From Fidelibacterota bacterium (GTDB taxonomy: Bacteria > Fidelibacterota > Marinisomatia > Marinisomatales > Marinisomataceae), in NCBI GenBank assembly GCA_028140795.1, contig JAOIOW010000005.1:1-41848 (forward strand): a DNA stretch of 41,848 nt, read 5' to 3'. The stretch's first letter is position 1, and the number at the start of each line of letters is the position of its first letter. Positions 25,354-29,319 of the stretch are shown piece after piece. Under the pieces are notes generated by a model. The model saw only the letters and a list, made by a program, of their open reading frames with translations, searched no databases and had not been told where the DNA came from. Both the position numbers and the translations under genes were made by a program.

Positions 25354-25416
25354 ATTGAATTATTTAATTTTAATATATAGATTAATTATGGTAGCCAACT
25401 AAACTAGGAGTAAAAT

Positions 25417-26076
25417 ATGTATCTAGAAAAACTAAACAAACAATTAGATGAGTTTCATTTATTAAAACATCCATTTTATGTTGCATGGAATAATGGAGAG
25501 TTAAACCAAGAAATATTAAAAGATTACGCTGAACAATATTATCAACACATTAAGGCGTTTCCTCGCTACATCAGTGCTACACATTCAATTTGTGAAGACA
25601 TTGAAAACAGAAAAATTTTACTTGATAATCTTAGCGATGAAGAAGATTTCAATAAAGATCACCCAATGCTTTGGAAACAGTTTGCACTAGCAGTTGGAGC
25701 GGATAAAAATTCCGTTGAAACAGTTGAGCATGAACATTTCACCAAAAAAATGATTGATAATTTTTTCAGACTTTCTAGATCAACTTATGCTGAAGGATTA
25801 GGTGCTTTATATGCATATGAAAGACAAGTTCCTGAAATTGCAGAAACTAAAATTAAAGGACTTGTAGATCATTATGAAGTATCGTCAGACGAGGGATTAG
25901 AATATTTTGTCCTTCATAAAGATGCTGACGTTGAACATAGAGAGCAAAGCGCTGAATTAATGAATAAGCTTTCAGATGAAGAAAAAATCTTAGCCAAAGA
26001 AGCAGGATTATCCACTGTAAAAGTATTGTGGGGCTTTCTTTCTGGTCTATGTGAAAAACATAATATTCAAGCTTAG
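25417..26076 (+). CDS. CADD-family di-iron protein, probable para-aminobenzoate synthase
   Basis: A 219-residue heme-oxygenase-fold protein of the TenA/PqqC-like CADD group. In chlamydiae this protein makes para-aminobenzoate for folate by consuming one of its own tyrosines. Using a constant 6-7 residue offset I can place each known position: metal ligands Glu75, His82, Glu135, His167, Asp171 and His174 (HKDADVEH), tyrosines 21 and 37 (equivalent to CADD Tyr27/43), and Lys145 (CADD Lys152). GALYAYERQVPEIA and NLSDEED are family signatures. A good AGGAG precedes the ATG. It stands between photolyase and apt. Function from homology; the chlamydial numbers are from memory. Confidence 0.82.
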   Translation: MYLEKLNKQLDEFHLLKHPFYVAWNNGELNQEILKDYAEQYYQHIKAFPRYISATHSICEDIENRKILLDNLSDEEDFNKDHPMLWKQFALAVGADKNSVETVEHEHFTKKMIDNFFRLSRSTYAEGLGALYAYERQVPEIAETKIKGLVDHYEVSSDEGLEYFVLHKDADVEHREQSAELMNKLSDEEKILAKEAGLSTVKVLWGFLSGLCEKHNIQA

Positions 26077-26127: not shown

Positions 26128-26655
26128 ATGAATATTGAACAAATAAAAGAAACAATAACAATCGTTAAAGATTATCCTATTAAGGGTATAGTATTTAAAG
26201 ATATTACTACACTTTTAGAAAATCCTGAGGCATTCAAATCTACTGTTGATATTATGGTAGACAAGGTGAAACACTTAGATTTTAATAGAGTGGTAGGAGT
26301 TGAATCTAGAGGATTTTTCTGGTCTGGACCAATTGCTTATGCTTTATCAAAATCATTTGTATTAGCTAGAAAGCCTGGAAAATTGCCAAGAAAAGCAGCT
26401 GAAAAATTCTTTTCTTTAGAGTATGGTACTAACACTGTACATATTCATGAAGATGCAATTTCAAAAGGAGATAAAGTATTAGTAGTAGATGATTTAATTG
26501 CAACCGGTGGTACTGCAATGGCCACTGCTGAACTTTGTCAGGAATTAGGTGCCTCTGAAGTGCATATAATTGCGTTAATTGACCTACCTAAGTTAGGTGG
26601 ATCAAAAAAATTAGCTGATAAATTCGGCGAAGTAATAACTCTTTTAGATTATTAA
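26128..26655 (+). CDS. apt: Adenine phosphoribosyltransferase
   Basis: Salvages adenine with PRPP to AMP in the cytosol. Motifs: VKDYPIKGIVFKDITTLL near 13-30, GVESRGFFW (flexible region), ARKPGKLPRKA, and the PRPP loop VVDDLIATGGTA near 123-134. The chosen ATG at 26128 (MNIEQIKE) gives 175 residues, close to the usual family length. The frame also contains ATGs at 26104 and 26113 that would add a short basic leader. No strong ribosome site separates these options. The gene ends tail-to-tail with the alkylsulfatase gene, overlapping it by four bases. Confidence 0.93.
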   Translation: MNIEQIKETITIVKDYPIKGIVFKDITTLLENPEAFKSTVDIMVDKVKHLDFNRVVGVESRGFFWSGPIAYALSKSFVLARKPGKLPRKAAEKFFSLEYGTNTVHIHEDAISKGDKVLVVDDLIATGGTAMATAELCQELGASEVHIIALIDLPKLGGSKKLADKFGEVITLLDY

Positions 26656-28355
26656 TCATTAACGAATAATGAGGAGAATTGAAGAAATTTTATTGATTCT
26701 CCATCAATTCTAAGTTTGCCTGACGCAATAGCTCGGGCAGCACTTTCTGTTTTTAAAATAATTCCTTTCCAAGTATCAGAATCAACAGAAACAATTACAT
26801 CATAATCATCTTTGTAAGAATTTGATACTTCAGCGATTTGGTTTCGTATGACAACTCCATATGTTTCATTTAAATCAGTAATATTAAAACCCACTTTAAT
26901 CAATTTACCTTTTGCTTTAATTGGATCAAGTCTTGGTCCCATAGCATCAAAAAAAGTGGATAGAGGAATATTTTTTGCTTGTTCTGCAGATATAGAATAT
27001 TCTAACGATGGAGTTATTTTACCTGATAATTCATATGCTTCAGATAGATAGTAGTTTCTAGCTATAGGATTTTTCTCAATCTGTGATAGATTTTCAAGTG
27101 ATTCACTGTATAAGTTTTTGATATCTTTATCATTTGGAAAATTTAATAATCCTATATCGCTCAATTCTGCAGCCCATTGGTAATTTGAAGAATTATTAGC
27201 TTTATTAATTTGTTCTATTAATTGCTCTTTAGAGCCAATCAATTCAAAAATATGTCTTGCTCTTTTTTTCTTAGATAATGGCTCTAAGTTTACCGCTCTT
27301 CCGTCGAAAAATCCTAAATATCCATTATAAACATTTCTAATGCTCCAAGATACTTTTCCATATTTTTCCTCTAAATCATAACTTTCTAAGAAAAAGGAAG
27401 GGTATTCAAATTCTTCGACCAGTTCATCTGGTGTTTTGCCAGCATTGGCACCTCTAATTGCATAATCATGAATAAATTGAATAGCATCCCTATAAATCGA
27501 TAATCGTTTTTCAATTACATCTTTGCCTTTAAGAAAAGGACCATGGCAGCTAATCAAGTATTGCGGTTGATATGATCGCATAGCGTCAACGGATTTATAC
27601 CAACTTTTTGAATCTCTGTAAGAAGTTCCTCTGATAGTATACAGATTAGGAAATCTCATATAATAATTATCAGCACTAATAACTACGTCTTTCTCAGGGT
27701 AATAAATGATGATTTGATCATCTGTTTCACCAGGGGTATGTTGAATTTCAAGATCAATACCACCTACAGAAAGTTTATTTGTTTGAAGTTCAAAAAAATG
27801 TGTTGGATAAATTACTGGTGGTTGTTCAAAATCAAAATTTAGCGTAAACCCAAGTCCGTGACCTCTTTTTAAGCTATCTGGTAAAAAATGACCAAATTGT
27901 TTCATGCCTCTTTTAGTAAGTATTGGTCGAAGTAGATTGTTTTGGTCAAAAAATCCTTTTTGAAATGTAGCATGAGCATAAACCTTGGTATTGTACTCAT
28001 AAAATCCTGGAGCACCTCTCCAATGATCCACATGTGAATGCGTATAAATAATAGCTTCATTTGGTAGATTAGAGATTTTTTTAAACTCATCATTAATTTG
28101 TTTTCCTAATTCAGGATCTTCTGTCGTATCGATGATGATATTGCCAGTGTCTCCAACAATAAGTATTGAATTGGCTAAACCATAGCCAATAGCAACATAA
28201 ACATTGTCTACGACTTGGTAGATTCCTTTTTCAAAATAAAAATCATCATCTACATGAATATTGTCAGAAAATGGAGCTGAATTATCAGTATTGCTTCGCT
28301 TATTATCATTGCAAGAAATAATTAGAGCCAAAAGTAGATAAAATAATATTCTCAT
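26652..28355 (-). CDS. Alkyl/aryl sulfatase-like MBL-fold lipoprotein (SdsA1 type)
   Basis: A 567-residue exported lipoprotein (LIISC, Cys15). The metallo-beta-lactamase domain has the zinc motif YTHSHVDHW (His106, His108, Asp110, His111) and a later metal region in HTPGETDDQIIIYYP. A helical dimerisation segment follows (about 350-430, LEPLSKKKRARHIFELIG) and the end is an SCP2-like sterol-carrier domain (about 455-567). This three-domain order is that of SdsA1/Pisa1 alkylsulfatases, which hydrolyse sulfate esters such as dodecyl sulfate to alcohols. It is somewhat shorter than the roughly 650-residue SdsA1. It is divergent from the aminotransferase gene across a 94-base gap. Confidence 0.9.
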   Translation of the reverse strand: MRILFYLLLALIISCNDNKRSNTDNSAPFSDNIHVDDDFYFEKGIYQVVDNVYVAIGYGLANSILIVGDTGNIIIDTTEDPELGKQINDEFKKISNLPNEAIIYTHSHVDHWRGAPGFYEYNTKVYAHATFQKGFFDQNNLLRPILTKRGMKQFGHFLPDSLKRGHGLGFTLNFDFEQPPVIYPTHFFELQTNKLSVGGIDLEIQHTPGETDDQIIIYYPEKDVVISADNYYMRFPNLYTIRGTSYRDSKSWYKSVDAMRSYQPQYLISCHGPFLKGKDVIEKRLSIYRDAIQFIHDYAIRGANAGKTPDELVEEFEYPSFFLESYDLEEKYGKVSWSIRNVYNGYLGFFDGRAVNLEPLSKKKRARHIFELIGSKEQLIEQINKANNSSNYQWAAELSDIGLLNFPNDKDIKNLYSESLENLSQIEKNPIARNYYLSEAYELSGKITPSLEYSISAEQAKNIPLSTFFDAMGPRLDPIKAKGKLIKVGFNITDLNETYGVVIRNQIAEVSNSYKDDYDVIVSVDSDTWKGIILKTESAARAIASGKLRIDGESIKFLQFSSLFVND

Positions 28356-28449: not shown

Positions 28450-29319
28450 ATGAGTTTGATATCATTTTCAAGAGACAAATTTATTCCATCTGATGAGGTG
28501 AGTCTTTCTGTAAGGGGAAATTATTTAAGCATTACTCGCGGTTATCAGGTTTTCACATTTTTTAAAACTACTAATAATGGAGTACCTGTTTTTCTTGATG
28601 ATCACATTGATAGAATTGTAGGAAATGCTCAGGCAATGAAAATGAATTTATCTTATTCAAAACAGGATATTAAAGGCTTGGTTCATCAAACATTAGAAAA
28701 AAATGATTTTTCAAAGAGTGAGTGTAATGTGATGATCATTTTTGCGGGTAAAGCTCCAGATGATATTTCAGGTTTAGTTTCATCACAAGAAGTTGATTTG
28801 TTTATTGTTACATCTCCAATTAAAAAATATCCTAAGGAATCTTATCAAAATGGAATTTCATTAGGTCTGTATGAATTTGAAAGGATTGATGCTGAAGTTA
28901 AGACACCTTATACATATTACGGTGGAATGAAAGCACATAGGTCTCTAGTGCATGAAGGGCCTTTTGATGAAGCGCTGTACACAAGCAAAGATGAAATTTT
29001 AGAAGGAACTACGTTTTCATTTTTTATTGTTAAAAACGGATCTGTAATAACTCCAAAGCTTGATGGAAGAATCTTAGGAAGTGTTACAAGAAAAAATTTG
29101 TTAAGAATTATGGATGCTCAAAACATTCAACATAGTGAATCTATAATTTCAATTGAGGATTTAAAAAGTTCTAGCGAAGCATTTATAGCTTCTGCGAATA
29201 GAGATTTAATACCTGTAGTTTCAGTAAGTGGTAATAAAATAGGTGACGGTAAAATTGGACCAGTGTATGAAAAGTTGATGAGCTTGTATCAACAGGAGTT
29301 ATTAAAAATTAATATATAA
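28450..29319 (+). CDS. PLP-dependent aminotransferase class IV
   Basis: A 289-residue fold-type IV PLP enzyme. An N-terminal SLSVRGNYLSITRGYQVF segment and DDHIDRI match the small domain. EVKTPYTYY holds the probable PLP lysine near 155, and LEGTTFSFFIVKNGSVITPK (about 194-213) is the typical E-G-x-x-x-N/F-x-F motif that binds phosphate. The family includes branched-chain aminotransferase, D-amino acid transaminase and aminodeoxychorismate lyase; this sequence does not decide between them. Since a CADD-type PABA synthase is present, a lyase role is not required. It is divergent from the alkylsulfatase gene, and a palindrome follows its stop. Confidence 0.8.
   Translation: MSLISFSRDKFIPSDEVSLSVRGNYLSITRGYQVFTFFKTTNNGVPVFLDDHIDRIVGNAQAMKMNLSYSKQDIKGLVHQTLEKNDFSKSECNVMIIFAGKAPDDISGLVSSQEVDLFIVTSPIKKYPKESYQNGISLGLYEFERIDAEVKTPYTYYGGMKAHRSLVHEGPFDEALYTSKDEILEGTTFSFFIVKNGSVITPKLDGRILGSVTRKNLLRIMDAQNIQHSESIISIEDLKSSSEAFIASANRDLIPVVSVSGNKIGDGKIGPVYEKLMSLYQQELLKINI

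Follow-up and report, generated by a model that had tools for sequence, protein, structure and literature searches.

A CADD-family gene predicted to encode a self-sacrificing p-aminobenzoate synthase, very probably the only PABA source of a free-living marine bacterium of the Marinimicrobia (SAR406)

CADD, the CT610 protein of Chlamydia trachomatis, has a reported role in host apoptosis in Chlamydia. The locus described here raises the question of whether a protein of the same family can supply p-aminobenzoate (PABA) for folate in a free-living marine bacterium, in place of the PabA/PabB/PabC pathway, as a preliminary description of the window (the whole 41,848-nucleotide stretch of DNA that was analysed) had proposed. 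The marine setting that it proposed is right: the host is a member of the Marinimicrobia (SAR406), its nearest records being single cells and MAGs of that group, and it is represented by an assembly of 921 kb in 12 contigs that is 85.8% complete. Our analysis indicates that the gene very probably encodes a single-turnover, O2-dependent dimetal PABA synthase of the CADD family and that this enzyme is very probably the bacterium's only source of PABA for folate. The features on which the argument depends are as follows.

25417..26076, + strand: predicted gene for a CADD-family (TIGR04305) self-sacrificing p-aminobenzoate synthase of 219 aa (open reading frame, profile, alignment and fold)
25406..25410, + strand: ribosome-binding site AGGAG, 6 bases 5' of the CADD ATG (read from the sequence)
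25477..25479, + strand: codon for Tyr21, the predicted sacrificed ring donor, equivalent to CADD Y27 and NePabS Y25 (alignment; PMC11965152)
25525..25527, + strand: codon for Tyr37, an essential tyrosine, equivalent to CADD Y43 and NePabS Y41 (alignment; PMC11965152)
25816..25818, + strand: codon for Tyr134, the first metal-selecting aromatic residue, equivalent to CADD Y141 and NePabS F148 (alignment; PMC11965152)
25849..25851, + strand: codon for Lys145, the predicted amine donor, equivalent to CADD K152 and NePabS K159 (alignment; PMC11965152)
25903..25905, + strand: codon for Tyr163, the second metal-selecting aromatic residue, equivalent to CADD Y170 and NePabS F177 (alignment; PMC11965152)

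The reading frame runs for 219 codons from an ATG on the + strand, exactly as first delimited, and its product belongs to the CADD family. The TIGR04305 profile, named "CADD family putative folate metabolism protein" in NCBIfam, matches the protein over its full length (model positions 1-212 of 212) at 292.9 bits, which is 93 bits above the cut-off of 200. The PqqC and BesC models, which represent enzymes of the same superfamily, give far weaker matches of about 40 bits, some 250 bits lower. The host genome has no other TenA/PqqC-superfamily match. Among solved structures, the best sequence matches are Chlamydia trachomatis CADD (1rcw, E=7e-51; also 8va9) and then 9pj4, annotated as a 4-aminobenzoate synthase (E=2.5e-42). 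We take 9pj4 to be the Nitrosomonas europaea enzyme NePabS (NE1434), because its sequence has the Tyr, Lys and Phe positions described for NePabS in PMC11965152. The AlphaFold2 model of the protein is all-helical and confident (pLDDT 95.3, pTM 0.91), and its four top fold matches in the PDB are all CADD crystal structures (TM 0.92-0.93, rmsd 1.2-1.5 A). The next match is PqqC, with an E-value of 3e-8 or worse that is more than 6 orders of magnitude weaker. The predicted fold is thus haem-oxygenase-like and nearest to CADD, the superfamily fold being held in common with PqqC, BesC and UndA.

The protein is 41% identical to CADD over 210 residues and 40% identical to NePabS. The six predicted metal ligands, E75, H82, E135, H167, D171 and H174 (three His and three carboxylate), align with E81, H88, E142, H174, D178 and H181 of CADD and are the same in NePabS, while Y21, Y37 and K145 align with Y27, Y43 and K152 of CADD and with Tyr25, Tyr41 and Lys159 of NePabS. 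The residue numbers first proposed for this alignment were correct. Both tyrosines had also been put forward as candidates for sacrifice. This holds for Y21, but the equivalent of Y37 is essential and is not sacrificed (PMC11965152). In addition, Y41 and W86 correspond by alignment to two NePabS residues whose alteration lowered activity (PMC11965152). Thirteen functional positions were compared in total, and all 13 are identical to CADD, among them the two tyrosines associated with Mn/Fe use, and 11 of 13 are identical to NePabS. NePabS, which has Phe148/Phe177 and uses Fe/Fe, differs from the Tyr134/Tyr163 of the window protein, and a loop of roughly 10 residues in NePabS has no counterpart in the window protein. 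The ligands, Y21, Y37, Y41, W86 and K145 are invariant across an alignment of 28 homologs with identities as low as 36%, and the dN/dS of the gene is 0.03-0.09 inside the genus and 0.14 against SAR11. The gene is therefore under strong purifying selection, and for these reasons the residue set is no chance match.

By analogy with CADD and NePabS, we infer the following reaction. The dimetal centre would activate O2, and an oxidising hole would move via nearby aromatic residues (candidates are Y134, Y163, W86, Y41 and Y37) to Tyr21. The side chain of Tyr21 would then be cleaved, leaving glycine, and would be oxidised with further O2 to the carboxylate, with the amino group supplied by Lys145. 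FolP would join the resulting PABA to the pterin from FolK. Such a reaction could yield at most one PABA per protein molecule.

The metals are the part of this scheme for which an alternative deserves the most attention. Tyr134 is invariant in the 28 aligned homologs, of which 12 have Tyr and 16 have Phe at position 163. The window's genus has Tyr/Tyr at this pair, as CADD does, Tyr/Phe occurs in the copies from SAR11 and in the majority of those from other Marinimicrobia, and NePabS has Phe/Phe. In NePabS, the F148Y change allowed the enzyme to work with both metal pairs, and its preference moved to Mn/Fe with F177Y as well as with the F148Y/F177Y double change (PMC11965152). Because Tyr occupies both 134 and 163, and because the NePabS mutants behaved in this way, a Chlamydia-like Mn/Fe pair is predicted for the window protein, an assignment made from two residues and based on two studied enzymes. 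That base (PMC11965152), together with the report that metal choice is not encoded by the primary ligands (PMC13108848), leaves some room for a CADD-type PABA maker that uses Fe/Fe, or either pair, or that follows a different electron route. We consider this unlikely, though not negligible, since Y134 and Y163 are the same as in CADD and the corresponding double change switched NePabS to Mn/Fe (PMC11965152).

The distribution of the gene in the phylum was examined in 175 Marinimicrobia genomes, each at least 80% complete. CADD was above cut-off in 31 of these and PabB was counted in 61, PabB and TrpE having been split by hand from score and frame length. The two occurred together in one genome only (G140, which carries both on short contigs), where 10.8 were expected (Fisher one-sided p=7e-6). 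The p value was 3e-4 without the window's genus and 0.01 when counted by genus, and these two adjustments are the extent of the correction for kinship. CADD and PabB are thus nearly mutually exclusive in the phylum. Since many genomes have neither, CADD cannot be assumed wherever PabB is lacking. In a genus designated g19 (G079, G081, G082), CADD was found in one species and PabB in two, which is possibly a recent swap of PABA routes.

Within the window's own genus, CADD was found in 21 of 24 genomes, counting intact, partial and frameshifted copies, and PabB in none of the 24, eight of which are at least 90% complete. FolK was present in 23 and FolP in 22. The count of 21 rather than 22 reflects the removal of a match in G009 that, by BLAST, does not resemble the window protein. 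The copies in G007 and G022 are broken; a reading of them as pseudogenes was rejected because neighbouring genes are also frameshifted, which makes sequencing error a more probable cause than gene death. The G008 copy is frameshifted as well. In the G007 stretch (L061, 1-12650), most genes are frameshifted, consistent with sequencing errors, and gene-loss calls from G007 are unsafe. Two genomes that are 94-95% complete (G006 and G023) have FolK and FolP and lack CADD and PabB. These are either assembly gaps or candidate PABA-uptake species. Since they keep both later enzymes, PABA uptake may be enough for some relatives.

These two near-complete relatives bear on a second alternative, in which the protein is a CADD-fold oxidase acting on a separate small-molecule substrate, like PqqC, BesC or UndA, and makes no PABA, which would be imported. 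A weak resemblance to the PqqC and BesC families also agrees with it. Against it, Y21, Y37 and K145 are invariant together with the metal ligands in 28/28 aligned homologs, the PqqC and BesC scores fall short by the margin given above, and CADD alternates with PabB across the phylum. We therefore judge an oxidase of this kind improbable.

The gene is solitary, as first described; no folate gene lies near it in the window, and none was recognised, by eye, among the listed CADD neighbours in other Marinimicrobia families. Its genus-conserved neighbours are a photolyase, an adenine phosphoribosyltransferase (APT) and an alkyl-sulfatase-like protein. Two genes on its 3' side are listed here.

26652-28355, - strand: alkyl-sulfatase-like metallo-beta-lactamase protein with an SCP2 domain, adjoining CADD and APT throughout the genus
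28450-29319: class IV aminotransferase, third gene 3' of CADD, its place kept throughout the genus; over no NCBIfam cut-off

The search for pabA, pabB and pabC that had been proposed as a test, which covered the host genome by family searches and in a few selected stretches, found no complete pabABC set. The host's one chorismate-binding enzyme scores 548.7 bits against the TrpE equivalog cut-off of 517.7, falls under every PabB cut-off and lies inside a complete trpEGDCFBA run, and the profile search found no PabB in the 85.8% complete assembly. FolP is present (TIGR01496, 333.7 bits against a cut-off of 162.6), as is FolK. The host has two class IV aminotransferases, both far under the PabC cut-offs, and the one at 28450-29319 was rejected as PabC for this reason. 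Moreover, without PabB any PabC in this host would lack a substrate. In the genus, 19 of 24 genomes have no chorismate-binding enzyme; each of the other five has a single copy of TrpE size, and those copies that were scanned proved to be TrpE. These 19 genomes are thus without TrpE too, which suggests that tryptophan auxotrophy is widespread in the genus; the window's genome retains its full operon. Canonical synthesis, through moonlighting TrpE/TrpG or a pabB in the unassembled 14% with a class IV aminotransferase (28450-29319 or C1:287242) acting as PabC, could appeal to the incomplete assembly, the family common to TrpG and PabA and the weak aminotransferase matches to PabC models, but it is highly improbable given those 19 genomes, the TrpE-sized copies of the other five, the eight genomes at least 90% complete, scanned copies that exceed the TrpE equivalog cut-off and aminotransferase scores far below the PabC cut-offs.

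The closest CADD homologs outside the genus (61-63% identical) come from SAR11.

L057 and L058, 6001-6672 in each: CADD homologs in two SAR11 (Pelagibacteraceae) single-cell genomes

In the CADD tree, the window's genus and these two copies form one clade (support 100/100), separate from the other Marinimicrobia copies. This suggests transfer of the gene between SAR406 and SAR11, two streamlined ocean lineages, or both may have acquired it from a donor outside the sample. Each of the two SAR11 genomes has one chorismate-binding enzyme, TrpE. By eye, CADD has an MFS transporter-like neighbour in both, and in L058 reading frames judged in the same way to be adenylylsulfate reductase follow a few genes downstream of it. 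Carriage by phage or virus was dismissed, as neither IMG/VR nor a set of 50,697 phage records contained a relative, and carriage by plasmid was dismissed as well, the matches being remote and PqqC-like only.

Enzymes of this kind are already known, including outside Chlamydia. NePabS was demonstrated genetically and biochemically (PMC11965152), and a non-chlamydial member is therefore less novel than the preliminary description implied. Unlike chlamydial CADD, the window gene is in a free-living marine host and outside any folate gene cluster; NePabS likewise has a free-living host and no folate gene cluster. The PabA/PabB/PabC pathway leads to the same product as is predicted here (PABA for FolP), but its enzymes are unrelated to CADD and start from chorismate. 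Two aspects appear to be new. First, a free-living ocean genus apparently obtains its PABA from CADD alone. Secondly, the Chlamydia-like Tyr/Tyr metal-selecting residues occur outside a host cell, where they would predict Mn/Fe use. No account of a CADD route emerged from a literature search on PABA or folate in Marinimicrobia. The interest of the case thus lies in genome-wide evidence for a sole PABA route in such a genus, combined with these residues. A broader proposal is that streamlined bacteria living free in the ocean depend for folate solely on a self-consuming PABA synthase that uses Mn/Fe; it concerns this SAR406 genus, whose gene has its closest outside relatives in SAR11 single cells. 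For this proposal we see about even chances.

If these readings are correct, there are several consequences. First, folate synthesis in these uncultured ocean bacteria would require oxygen and metal, and an entire protein for every PABA molecule. Secondly, annotation based on pabABC only could miss the CADD route, so that such genomes might be misjudged as auxotrophic for folate or PABA. Third, the family would offer a natural Tyr/Tyr, Tyr/Phe and Phe/Phe series for probing metal choice. Lastly, a free-living Tyr/Tyr enzyme with Tyr/Phe relatives bears on the published idea that Mn/Fe reflects iron limitation in the host, and Mn/Fe use would not be an adaptation to life within a host cell.
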